Source of the DNA: Chromohalobacter nigrandesensis
Lineage (GTDB): Bacteria > Pseudomonadota > Gammaproteobacteria > Pseudomonadales > Halomonadaceae
NCBI RefSeq assembly: GCF_023061285.1
Contig: NZ_JAKGAM010000016.1
Coordinates: 1-64,000, forward strand
Length of the DNA: 64,000 nucleotides
Direction of reading: 5' to 3'
Shown: piece by piece, positions 34,334 to 38,131 of the stretch
Numbering within the stretch: the first letter of the stretch is position 1
Layout: each line of letters starts with the position of its first letter
The notes under the pieces: model-generated
Told to the model about the DNA's origin: nothing
Database searches by the model: none
The model's input: the letters and a program-made list of their open reading frames with translations, nothing else
Program-made: the position numbers and the translations under genes

Positions 34334-34410
34334 AGGACCGTAGCTCAGTTGGTTAGAGCGCCACGTTGACATCGTGGAGGTCAGCGGTTCAAATCCGCTC
34401 GGTCCTACCA
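34334..34410 (+). tRNA. tRNA-Val (GAC)
   Basis: A 77-base cloverleaf with acceptor AGGACCG pairing with CGGTCCT, D arm GCTC/GAGC, anticodon stem CCACG/CGTGG with loop TTGACAT (anticodon GAC), T arm AGCGG TTCAAAT CCGCT and encoded CCA. Confidence 0.97.
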
Positions 34411-34487: not shown

Positions 34488-34564
34488 AGGACCGTAGCTC
34501 AGTTGGTTAGAGCGCCACGTTGACATCGTGGAGGTCAGCGGTTCAAATCCGCTCGGTCCTACCA
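34488..34564 (+). tRNA. tRNA-Val (GAC), second identical copy
   Basis: Identical in all 77 bases to the copy at 34334-34410 and separated from it by 77 bp. A terminator follows directly, so both are probably processed from one transcript. Confidence 0.97.
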
Positions 34565-35186: not shown

Positions 35187-36014
35187 TTACTCCCAGCCGG
35201 GCACTGCGGCACCCTTGAACAGCTCGTTGGCCTTGTCGATGACGGCCTGCGACTGATACGCCTTGACCAGGTTCTGGATCGCCTTGTCGTCCTGTTCTCC
35301 TTCACGTGCGACGATCAGGTTGACGTAGGGCGACTCAGGCCCTTCCTTGACCAAAGCGTCGTCCAGGCTGAGGCCTGCCGGCTGGGCGAAGGTATTGTTG
35401 ATGAAGGCCAGGTCCACATCGGGAAGCACGCGCGGCAACTGGGCAGCTTCGATCTCGCGGAATTCGTAGTCGTGAGGGTTGTCGCTGATATCCACCGGCG
35501 TCGCTTCGAGATTTTCCGGGTCGTCGAGTTCGATGAGCCCTTCGTTGTGCATCAAAATGAGTGAACGTCCCTCGTTGGAAGGGTCGTTGGGAAGAGCGAT
35601 AGTGGCGCCGTCGGGTACGTCGTCGATGTTGTCATAGCGCTCGGAATACGCGCCGATCGGGTAGACGAAGGTCTTGCCGGCGATGGCGAAGTCGTAACCG
35701 CGATCCTCGACCATGCTATTCAGGTACGGCTCATGCTGGAAGGCATTGGCATCCAGGCTGCCGTCAGCGAGGGCCGCATTGGGCGAGACATAGTCGGTGA
35801 ACTCGACGATTTCGACGTCGAGATCGTAGTCGTCCTTGGCGATTTGCTTGGCGACTTCCATGACGTCCGTTTCCGGGCCTGCCACGGTGCCGACCTTGAT
35901 CGACTGTGTCTCGGCGTCATCGCTTCCGCAGCCGGCGAGTAAGCCGGCACCGAGTAGTGCCGCCGCGCCGAAGAGGCGAACGGGGTGTAGGGCCTGTGCC
36001 AGAGTGTCGTTCAT
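35187..36014 (-). CDS. metQ: D-methionine-binding lipoprotein MetQ
   Basis: Substrate-binding lipoprotein of the MetNIQ importer, 275 residues. The signal peptide ends in lipobox LAGC (Cys29), so it is anchored to the outer face of the inner membrane. The mature part has TVAGPETDVMEVAK and EFTDYVSPNAALADGSLDANAFQHE-type NlpA family segments. It is the last gene of the metN-metI-metQ set, 124 bp after metI; a possible promoter in that gap could give extra expression of the binding protein. Confidence 0.93.
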   Translation of the reverse strand: MNDTLAQALHPVRLFGAAALLGAGLLAGCGSDDAETQSIKVGTVAGPETDVMEVAKQIAKDDYDLDVEIVEFTDYVSPNAALADGSLDANAFQHEPYLNSMVEDRGYDFAIAGKTFVYPIGAYSERYDNIDDVPDGATIALPNDPSNEGRSLILMHNEGLIELDDPENLEATPVDISDNPHDYEFREIEAAQLPRVLPDVDLAFINNTFAQPAGLSLDDALVKEGPESPYVNLIVAREGEQDDKAIQNLVKAYQSQAVIDKANELFKGAAVPGWE

Positions 36015-36138: not shown

Positions 36139-36792
36139 TCATTTGTGGTCGGCCTTGCGCACAAGGCGGTCGCCAAGGCTTTGAAAGCCTTGCACCATGA
36201 CGACCAATATCGCCACCGTGATGAGCATGATCAGCGGTTCGAAGCGGTTGTAGCCGTAACGGATGCCCAAGTCACCCAGACCGCCACCGCCGACGGCGCC
36301 GGCCATGGCCGAGTAGCTGACCAGTGTGACCACGGTGATGGTCAGGCCATTGATGATGCCGCCCTTGGCTTCCGGTAGGAGTACCTTGGTGATGATCTGC
36401 ACCGGGGTGGCGCCCATCGCCTGAGCGGCTTCGATGAGGCCTGGGGGAATCTCGTTGAGCGCGCCTTCGACCAGGCGCGCGACGAAGGGGATCGCGGCGA
36501 TGATGAGCGGCACTATGGCGGCGTTGGTGCCGATAGAGCTGCCGACGACGAGACGCGTGAAGGGGATGATCGCCACCATGAGAATGATGAAGGGAATCGA
36601 ACGGCCGATATTGGTGACGATTCCCAGTACGCGCTGGGCGACGGGCTGCGCGAGGATCTGCCCCGGCCGCGTGACATACAGCAGAACGCCGAGGGGAATG
36701 CCGATCACGGCCGAAACCGCGCCCGAGAGTGCGACCATATAGAGTGTGTCGAGAGTGGCCTCGAAGATCAGTTCAAGCATCGCGCTGGACAT
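36139..36792 (-). CDS. metI: Methionine ABC transporter permease MetI
   Basis: Inner-membrane permease of 217 residues with five hydrophobic helices and the EAA-loop motif (GLIEAAQAMGATPVQIITKVLLPEAKGG). It transports L- and D-methionine with MetN and MetQ. The ATG at 36792 (AGAGG 9 bases upstream) overlaps the metN end by 20 bp; a second ATG at 36780 would overlap by 8 bp. Confidence 0.93.
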   Translation of the reverse strand: MSSAMLELIFEATLDTLYMVALSGAVSAVIGIPLGVLLYVTRPGQILAQPVAQRVLGIVTNIGRSIPFIILMVAIIPFTRLVVGSSIGTNAAIVPLIIAAIPFVARLVEGALNEIPPGLIEAAQAMGATPVQIITKVLLPEAKGGIINGLTITVVTLVSYSAMAGAVGGGGLGDLGIRYGYNRFEPLIMLITVAILVVMVQGFQSLGDRLVRKADHK

Positions 36793-37816
36793 GGCCGAGT
36801 ACCTCTACATTGATGTCGTGGGATTCGAGTTGCGTGAGTGCTTGTGACGTCGTCTCGGGCGTGCCAATGAGCTCGGCGATCATCAGGCCCAGCGTGCGGC
36901 CCTGAATCGACTCCACCTTGGCTTGCAGGATGCTGACATCGACGCCGCTATCGCGTGCCAGGCGCGAGATGAGTGGCGTGGCGACATTGGCACCAGAAAA
37001 CGCCAGGCGTACCACAGGATGGGTATGCTCGCCGGGTGTTTCTTCGAGACGCTCGACCAGCGCTTGAGGTGGCTCAAGCTCGAGAAAGGCGTTGAGAAAC
37101 TCGCGGCCCAGGCGTGTCGCCGGCGCAGTGAAGAAATCGCCGACGTCGGCTTCTTCTACCAGCTCGCCATCCGAGATCAGACCGACACGGTGGCAGATGC
37201 TCTTGACCACTTCCATCTCATGGGTAATGAGCAAAATGGTCAGCCCCAGCTTGCGGTTGATGTCCTGCAGCAGTTCGAGGATCGACGCCGTCGTCTGTGG
37301 ATCGAGGGCAGAGGTCGCTTCATCGCAGAGCAGTACCTTGGGGCGGCTGGCGAGTGCCCGCGCGATGGCCACGCGCTGTTTCTGCCCTCCCGAGAGTTGT
37401 GCCGGGTATTGCGTGGCCTTGTCGGTCAGGCCGGTGAGCTCGAGCAGTGGTTCGACGCGCTTGCGAATCTCGCCTTTGGATACGCCCATCAGTTCCAGCG
37501 GCAGCGCCACGTTGTCGAAAACCGTACGTGAGGCGAGCAGATTGAAATGCTGGAAAATCATGCCGAGCTGATGACGCGACTGGCGCAAGGCTTCGCTGTC
37601 CTGCTGGGTCAAGTCCTGGCCGTCGACAATGATATGGCCCGACGTCGGGCGCTCGAGGAGGTTGACGCAGCGAATCAGCGTCGATTTGCCCGCGCCGGAC
37701 AAACCGATCACGCCGTGAATGGCGCCCTTCGGGACTTCCAGGTCGATATTTTTGAGGGCGTGGACCGCCGTGGGGCCGGCCCCATAGGTTTTGGAAACAC
37801 CTTCGAGTTTGATCAT
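36773..37816 (-). CDS. metN: Methionine ABC transporter ATPase MetN
   Basis: A 347-residue ATPase with Walker [10 protein letters not shown], signature LSGGQKQR, Walker [12 protein letters not shown], and a C-terminal NIL/ACT-like domain (after about 265) that binds methionine and inhibits transport (transinhibition). It is first in the metNIQ operon, 165 bp after an intrinsic terminator that is preceded by a SAM-II-like riboswitch. Confidence 0.95.
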
Positions 37817-37980: not shown

Positions 37981-38007
37981 AAAAAAAGGCCACCCAGGCG
38001 GGTGGCC
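37981..38007 (-). terminator. Leader terminator (attenuator) upstream of metN
   Basis: On the minus strand a perfect 8-bp stem (GGCCACCC / GGGTGGCC) with a GCCT loop is followed by seven U. It lies between the riboswitch and metN, with no gene of its own, so it should act as a premature terminator. Its 5' arm carries CACCC, complementary to the GGGTG that ends the riboswitch pseudoknot. Confidence 0.9.
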
Positions 38008-38021
38008 ATCAACGCTGGACA

Positions 38022-38090
38022 CACCCTTTTAGCGGTATTTTCCCGGGACATGCCCGGGCGCGCCCGCAATCTGGGTACAAATCGGCGCTC
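38022..38090 (-). promoter_or_regulatory. SAM-II-like riboswitch in metN leader
   Basis: On the minus strand the RNA reads GCGCCGAUUUG, then UACCC, AUUGC and GGGCGC, then an extra hairpin (CCCGGG, loop CAUGU, CCCGGG), then AAAAUACCGCUAAAAGGGUG. This follows the SAM-II layout: P1 (GCGCC with GGCGC), the conserved GAUUU and AUUGC, and the late GCUAAAA that ends in a pseudoknot (UACCC at 38077-38073 with GGGUG at 38026-38022). S-adenosylmethionine binding would stabilise the pseudoknot. The element lies behind a near-consensus promoter and in front of an intrinsic terminator and a methionine transporter, as expected for an OFF switch. Confidence 0.85.
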
Positions 38091-38102
38091 AAGAAGTCGC
38101 GG

Positions 38103-38131
38103 ATTCTAGGCAGCGCTTCGAGACCTGTCAA
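38103..38131 (-). promoter_or_regulatory. Strong sigma-70 promoter of metNIQ leader RNA
   Basis: On the minus strand TTGACA (38131-38126) and TAGAAT (38108-38103) are separated by exactly 17 bp. Transcription should start near 38096, a few bases before the riboswitch. Confidence 0.88.

Follow-up and report, generated by a model that had tools for sequence, protein, structure and literature searches.

A probable SAM-II-lineage riboswitch with a SAM-V-like hairpin in front of the metNIQ methionine transporter genes of Halomonadaceae

The window analysed here, a stretch of 64,000 nucleotides of Chromohalobacter nigrandesensis DNA, carries on its minus strand the methionine transporter genes metN, metI and metQ. 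The leader before them runs from position 38131 to 37981: first a promoter, then an RNA laid out like SAM-II, and last an intrinsic terminator, with all named elements present (Table 1). Between the end of the terminator and the metN start codon lie 164 nt, and metI and metQ follow further downstream. Pfam and NCBIfam models support the assignment of the transporter genes: the best NCBIfam match of MetN was ABC_MetN, yet under its cut-off (474.1 vs 499.7), and that of the metQ product was NF008285 MetQ, below that model's own cut-off. Of the 41 family leaders that keep the core motif, 40 are directly followed by metN (39 recognized by a regular expression, plus L041, in which metN seemingly starts with TTG). 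The metNIQ target proposed in an earlier note on this DNA is supported. At gathering thresholds, Rfam models recognized two tRNAs only over the window. Two adjoining tRNA-Val(GAC) genes, at 34334-34410 and 34488-34564, have equal Rfam scores.

Table 1. Features of the metNIQ locus and its leader (window positions).
Feature	Position	Strand	Basis or remark
metN, methionine ABC transporter ATPase with NIL domain	36773..37816	-	Pfam ABC_tran and NIL
metI, permease	36139..36792	-	NF008049 MetI above cut-off
metQ, substrate-binding lipoprotein	35187..36014	-	Pfam Lipoprotein_9; MetQ/NlpA TIGR00363 above cut-off
-35 hexamer TTGACA	38126..38131	-	Exact in the best-scoring site of 39/41 family leaders
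-10 hexamer TAGAAT	38103..38108	-	17-nt spacer to -35
P1 5' strand GCGCC	38084..38088	-	Pairs with 38060-38064; P1 covaries
GAUUUG, conserved SAM-II core segment	38078..38083	-	Invariant in alignment A1; aligns to RF00521 consensus in relatives
CCC, 5' strand of pseudoknot extension P2a	38073..38075	-	Partner GGG 38024-38026 in 38/38; covariation between clades
AUUGC, P2 core 5' strand	38066..38070	-	Conserved; aligned to RF00521
P1 3' strand GGCGC	38060..38064	-	Pairs with GCGCC 38084-38088
Added GC-rich hairpin directly 3' of P1, SAM-V-like P3	38042..38058	-	6 bp, 5-nt loop; missing from compact relatives
AA 3' of hairpin, candidate A-minor bases	38039..38040	-	Invariant in 38/38; likened to SAM-V A41/A42 (PMC6061858, available part)
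GCUAAAA, P2 3' strand	38027..38033	-	Within GCUAAAAGGGUG 38033-38022; conserved
GGGUG	38022..38026	-	GGG:CCC = P2a (SAM-bound), or GGGUG:CACCC = antiterminator (both predicted)
Near-invariant linker UGUGUCCAGCGUUGA(U)	38008..38023	-	UGUGUCCAGC invariant; GUUGA in at least 90% of 38 leaders
CACCC, common to antiterminator and terminator 5' arm	38000..38004	-	Alternative pairings
Intrinsic terminator stem-loop GGCCACCC-GCCU-GGGUGGCC	37988..38007	-	Stem of 8 bp, 7 GC
Terminator U-tract, seven U	37981..37987	-	U-tract in 77/79 named loci (regular expression)

The near-perfect promoter and the intrinsic terminator described in the earlier note were both found and are both kept in relatives. The TTGACA/TAGAAT pair agrees with the consensus at 11 of 12 positions, and the region contains one promoter-like site vs 0.3 in its shuffles. 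A promoter-like pair with at least 9 of 12 matches occurs in all 41 leaders, and P1, as counted, begins 13-18 nt after it in 40 of them, the best pair of L034 lying further upstream.

The Rfam model of the SAM-II family (RF00521, SAM_alpha; gathering cut-off 36 bits) does not recognize the window leader, which reached 13.3 bits at a lax threshold over model positions 11-41 only. This match stands among several unrelated window matches of similar or better E-value, and such a score is not outstanding for RF00521 across the whole genome. A survey of the phylum with the same model, run under stricter filters, covered 398 genomes, 69 of them above the cut-off. Matches at E<=0.01 occurred in 93 genomes, all from outside the family, and at least nine same-family genomes, the window's own included, had no match. 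Within the family, hairpin-less metN leaders were found above the cut-off, with 47.8 bits for L041 (E 1.9e-8), 36.9 bits for L039 (E 1.8e-5) and 38.4 bits for L143. Other compact metN leaders scored below it (29.6 bits for L042 and L043, 27.8 for L142 and 25.4 for L040), one (L144) had no match at E<=0.1, and none of four hairpin-bearing leaders (L016, L018, L022 and L025) was matched at that threshold. A covariance model made from 38 halomonad leaders, designated R1, was searched against 30 RF00521 loci belonging to other classes of the phylum. It matched 8 of them at E<=1, the strongest match reaching 22.8 bits (E 4.5e-4), and the hairpin positions were skipped in both alignments shown. The hairpin between P1 and the P2 3' strand is likely the main reason for the Rfam miss. 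Since hairpin-less relatives in front of metN pass RF00521, the window leader is considered homologous to SAM-II. On sequence grounds, this RNA belongs to the SAM-II lineage, as a variant with a SAM-V-like feature and predicted SAM binding. The SAM-II-like character claimed in the earlier note is thus supported as a matter of lineage; the covariance-model check that it had suggested gave no significant score for the window itself, a result outweighed by the scores of the three relatives above the cut-off. Equating the Rfam miss with the absence of a riboswitch is ruled out by these compact relatives and by the R1 matches to RF00521 loci.

Conservation was assessed in an alignment of 38 distinct leaders (A1), in which GAUUUG, [AC]UUGC and GCUAAA are invariant, the leaders having been gathered partly by a pattern containing these core motifs. 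Of the cells in the 21 pairs assigned to P1, P2a, the loop hairpin and the terminator, 94.1% are paired vs 89.6% in shuffles, with both-sided changes at 8 pairs vs 3.8; neither observed value was reached in any of 500 shuffles, in statistics that ignore relatedness. P1 is paired in 93.0% of cells, with both-sided changes in two of its six pairs (outer pairs G-C, A-U and C-G), and the terminator in 98.7%. The four outer pairs of the hairpin, paired in 81.2% of cells with the Chromohalobacter rows one out of register, all show both-sided changes. P2a is a helix of only 3 bp, paired in 38 of 38 leaders (100%, one with U-G) and almost unvarying within the family. Its strands were further compared across clades including halomonad metN leaders, metN, metK, metA and PLP-enzyme leaders of other families, tandem elements and RF00521 loci. 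The within-row match score was 9.17 vs 7.65 when strands were swapped between rows (sd 0.27; 0 of 2000), in a test of 62 rows that ignores relatedness and includes one spurious row (the third of L145). By these counts, P1, the hairpin and the terminator covary, and P2a does so only between clades.

The added GC-rich hairpin of the earlier note is therefore present and covaries across the family, and the search for covariation in halomonad metN leaders that it had suggested gave a positive result for P1, hairpin and terminator, P2a hardly varying inside the family. Its UACCC:GGGUG pseudoknot holds for the CCC:GGG part and not as a full 5-bp helix: the two bases 5' of CCC vary (UA, UC, UU, AC, AA, AU), and the UG 3' of GGG is constant. 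RNAalifold alone on A1 predicted P1 and the terminator, neither hairpin nor P2, and instead paired GCU:AGC with GG:CC. Folding z-scores of the hairpin range from +0.2 to -4.6 among leaders. The span from UUGC to GCUAAA measures 18-20 nt in compact rows and 32-52 nt in hairpin leaders, and the linker UGUGUCCAGCGUUGA is conserved beyond pairing needs.

The halomonad leader shares with SAM-II (RF00521) the P1 helix, the GAUUUG...UUGC...GCUAAA core, the P2/P2a pseudoknot, a promoter near P1, a terminator and a methionine gene. It differs in the hairpin inserted after P1, the longer UUGC-to-GCUAAA span, a P2a of only 3 bp and its metNIQ target. According to the available part of PMC6061858, P3 is absent in SAM-II; in SAM-V (RF01826), the P3 stem-loop directly follows the 3' strand of P1 and is followed by stacked A's in the P1 minor groove. 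The halomonad hairpin sits at this P3 position and covaries, and the AA after it, a candidate pair of A-minor bases, is invariant in 38 of 38 leaders. By analogy with SAM-V, the hairpin would probably stack on the outer end of P1, and GAUUUG may form the third strand of P2. In contrast to SAM-V, described in the same part of that source as translational with a 2-bp P2a, the halomonad leader ends in a terminator 164 nt before the metN start and has no Shine-Dalgarno platform. RF01826 gave no match above its cut-off in 10 genomes, two weak matches lying elsewhere. The SAM-II long loops family (RF01726), a published SAM-II-related family with longer loops by name, was reported from Bacteroidetes and marine sequence (PMC2864571). 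None of 13 same-family genomes had a match to it above the cut-off; G000 had no match at all, and one weak match (17.5 bits, cut-off 44) fell on the compact leader of G030. These scores rule out SAM-V and SAM-II long loops as the proper family.

The leader is broadly distributed among Halomonadaceae. A DNA search covered 97 genomes, 61 of them from the same genus or family, and detected it in 42 of those 61, the window's own included (L005-L046), with the core motif kept in 41 of the 42 loci, the exception being the decayed L044. With R1, matches at E<=0.01 were obtained in 243 of the 275 genomes of the family, spread over 22 of 24 genera and counted whatever the gene downstream; 224 of these genomes matched at E<=1e-10, and the 19 weaker ones may include chance matches. 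In the available part of Barrick and Breaker (PMC2258182), SAM-II is sporadic in gammaproteobacteria; within Halomonadaceae it is pervasive. The 25-mer GCTAAAAGGGTGTGTCCAGCGTTGA, from GCUAAA to the linker end, occurs in named Halomonadaceae records, and the exact 25-base pattern in at least 119 stretches. The 80 matches listed include titles of Halomonas, Vreelandella, Billgrantia, Chromohalobacter, Salinicola, Onishia, Cobetia, Modicisalibacter, Litchfieldella, Aidingimonas, Phytohalomonas and Terasakiispira. Among these 80 loci, 79 carry the core motif, 77 of the 79 with a longer span (26-172 nt), and all 76 named loci with a span of at least 28 fold into at least 5 bp. The metN ATPase motif was found within 700 nt in 75 of the 79 named loci, two of the four misses being due to fetched stretches that were too short. 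The plasmid collection gave no leader match and the viral collection no exact match to the 25-base pattern, and a plasmid or viral home of the leader is unsupported without matches in either.

An insert between P1 and the P2 3' strand occurs in 36 of the 41 core-bearing family leaders, including the 166-nt one of L038, the exceptions being L039-L043. In a metN tree with midpoint root, 22 of 23 hairpin leaders belong to one supported clade, the hairpin leader L031 groups with compact leaders at weak support, and the compact leaders of outgroup families fall outside together with L041. Based on this distribution, the hairpin was apparently gained within Halomonadaceae, by one or two gains or by a gain and losses. 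Several leaders depart from the common form. In Salinicola peritrichatus (L038 / L215), an imperfect palindrome of about 166 nt in the P1-P2 loop replaces the short hairpin and is possibly a mobile repeat. In G046 (L290), all that is left of the leader is P1-like remnants immediately ahead of the start codon of metN, the P2 3' strand and the terminator being gone, and the leader of G057 (L045) has an intact aptamer core and a terminator without U-tract.

Compact SAM-II elements were found in other families of the order, in 21 of 23 inspected matches (L113-L132 and L134); the other two, L112 and L133, show no core motif and seem to be fortuitous hits. Their targets comprise eight metN-like genes, nine metK, two homoserine O-succinyltransferase genes (metA-type), one Cys/Met PLP enzyme and one unclear case, assigned by Pfam on one representative each of the metK, HTS and PLP types and by eye for the rest. 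Four of these compact elements were compared with RF00521, one scoring above the cut-off and three below. Some genomes of the genus g20 carry tandem SAM-II pairs (L145, L147-L155 and L159-L161; e.g. L151 from 1500 on), in which the first aptamer has a terminator where CGCUUUAGC can pair with GCUAAAGCG, and the second is followed by a possible anti-Shine-Dalgarno. Downstream lies an ORF of about 70 aa (LLAQDDIVRPELRNAAIL) or of about 225-270 aa, with no Pfam match in the three tested. Tandem SAM-II arrangements are no novelty, 44 being already listed in the available part of PMC9481103.

Regarding the expression platform, CACCC can pair with the terminator 3' arm or with GGGUG, and the two pairings are mutually exclusive. 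SAM would bind the P2 triplex and fix GCUAAAAGGG in P2/P2a, leaving CACCC free for the terminator to form; without SAM, GGGUG, aided by the linker pairing CCA:UGG, would pair with CACCC, delaying the terminator and letting the polymerase escape. In folding predictions for the nascent window RNA, the minimum-energy structure contains the antiterminator at 98 and 106 nt and the terminator from 110 nt; at 86-94 and 102 nt it is a competing nested fold (AGCGC:GCGUU, GAU:GUC and UACCC:GGGUG), which would also permit the terminator. The predicted energies in the window are -10.6 kcal/mol for the antiterminator vs -18.0 for the terminator. The computed probability of the antiterminator (GGG:CCC) just before the terminator 3' arm is 0.24 in the window, with a mean of 0.58 over 38 leaders and values of at least 0.5 in 23 of them. 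At full length, the computed terminator probability is at least 0.99 in 36 of 38 leaders and 0 in two rows, L042 (probably through indexing) and L045 (altered terminator). With the terminator predicted to dominate and the antiterminator weaker, switching would therefore have to be kinetic. Under these models, SAM-dependent termination of metNIQ is likely and the GGGUG:CACCC antiterminator plausible; the blocking of the terminator by GGGUG without SAM, as the earlier note had it, is a plausible pairing that these predictions make weak.

The same note had taken SAM-II to be mainly translational, a view contradicted by the available parts of PMC2258182 and PMC6061858, which link it mostly to transcription termination. 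In the former, transcription terminators accompany most SAM-II of alpha- and betaproteobacteria, and PMC9373788, in its available part, reports Sinorhizobium SAM-II leader RNAs attributed to termination. The Sinorhizobium metZ element resembles the halomonad leader in having an aptamer, a predicted terminator and a short RNA of expected length; it differs in being alphaproteobacterial and in front of a biosynthetic gene, and the available text mentions no added hairpin (PMC9373788).

The behaviour of leader copies located away from metN also bears on function. Four genomes of the Salinicola-group genus g3 were checked (G049, G060, G602 and G609); in each of them, 6.9-7.5 kb separate the leader from metN, and no such leader was seen by eye upstream of metN in four loci. 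Copies in nine genomes (L296-L304) score from 107 down to 44 bits, representing stages of decay, and a tenth genome of the genus (G011) has no leader match. The copy faces a convergent gene in the three named loci examined (L175, L199 and L215). Because these copies decay, as a cis element should once away from metN, they support the reading that we consider very probable, in which a riboswitch of the SAM-II lineage, enlarged by a SAM-V-like P3 hairpin, would turn metNIQ off by termination at high SAM.

Other readings were weighed against it. The leader could respond to SAM with an OFF state in which the linker pairs with the P1 5' strand and GAUUU, in place of GGGUG:CACCC. At several lengths of the transcript, this anti-P1 fold has the lowest predicted energy, and the linker hardly varies, including in leaders whose antiterminator partner is CAGCC or GCC in place of UGGCC; yet the linker does not change along with the P1 5' variants GGCGCC, GACGCC and CGCGCC, and we regard this switch as unlikely. 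There is a slim chance that the terminated leader has a second role in trans, that of a small RNA gated by SAM and pairing through the linker as its seed. The linker loop is invariant beyond the pairing requirement, Sinorhizobium makes short SAM-II RNAs (PMC9373788, available part), and four of the nine g3 copies keep 34 of 34 bases of the GCUAAA-to-CACCC segment, one of them with an interrupted aptamer, and a fifth keeps 33. However, the other four copies decay within this segment (23-30 of 34), and G011 lacks any match. Equally doubtful is a combined scenario of a SAM-II/SAM-V intermediate, in which P3 was acquired within Halomonadaceae and the terminated leader would double as a SAM-gated small RNA through the 16-nt linker. 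A degenerate SAM-II aptamer without SAM binding, whose terminator sets a fixed low metNIQ level, would fit the failure of the window at RF00521 and the predicted dominance of the terminator, but is very improbable given that GAUUUG, UUGC and GCUAAA show no change in any of 38 leaders, in which the hairpin sequence varies, and that copies away from metN do decay.

In the available part of Leyn et al. (PMC4239095), an Rfam profile scan placed SAM_alpha "only in Rhizobiales and Rhodobacterales", in a set that includes a 12-genome group of Oceanospirillales and various gammaproteobacteria. Corbino et al. (PMC1273637) is among the published works with which the halomonad leader was compared. Our literature search found no account of SAM-II riboswitches in Halomonas, and judging by title and opening of the abstract, no paper retrieved for Halomonas, riboswitches and methionine seems to deal with this leader; most subscription journals and supplements lie outside its coverage, and prior notice is possible.

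Our preferred reading, the SAM-II-lineage riboswitch with a SAM-V-like P3, implies that the SAM-II core can accommodate a stem at the P3 position of SAM-V, so that natural sequences can be used to test the boundary between SAM-II and SAM-V. Leaders with and without P3 occur in one family and offer a direct comparison of affinity and switching. Halomonas-related salt-loving bacteria possess a known kind of RNA switch, which probably senses SAM and halts transcription, in a hairpin form that the standard model misses.
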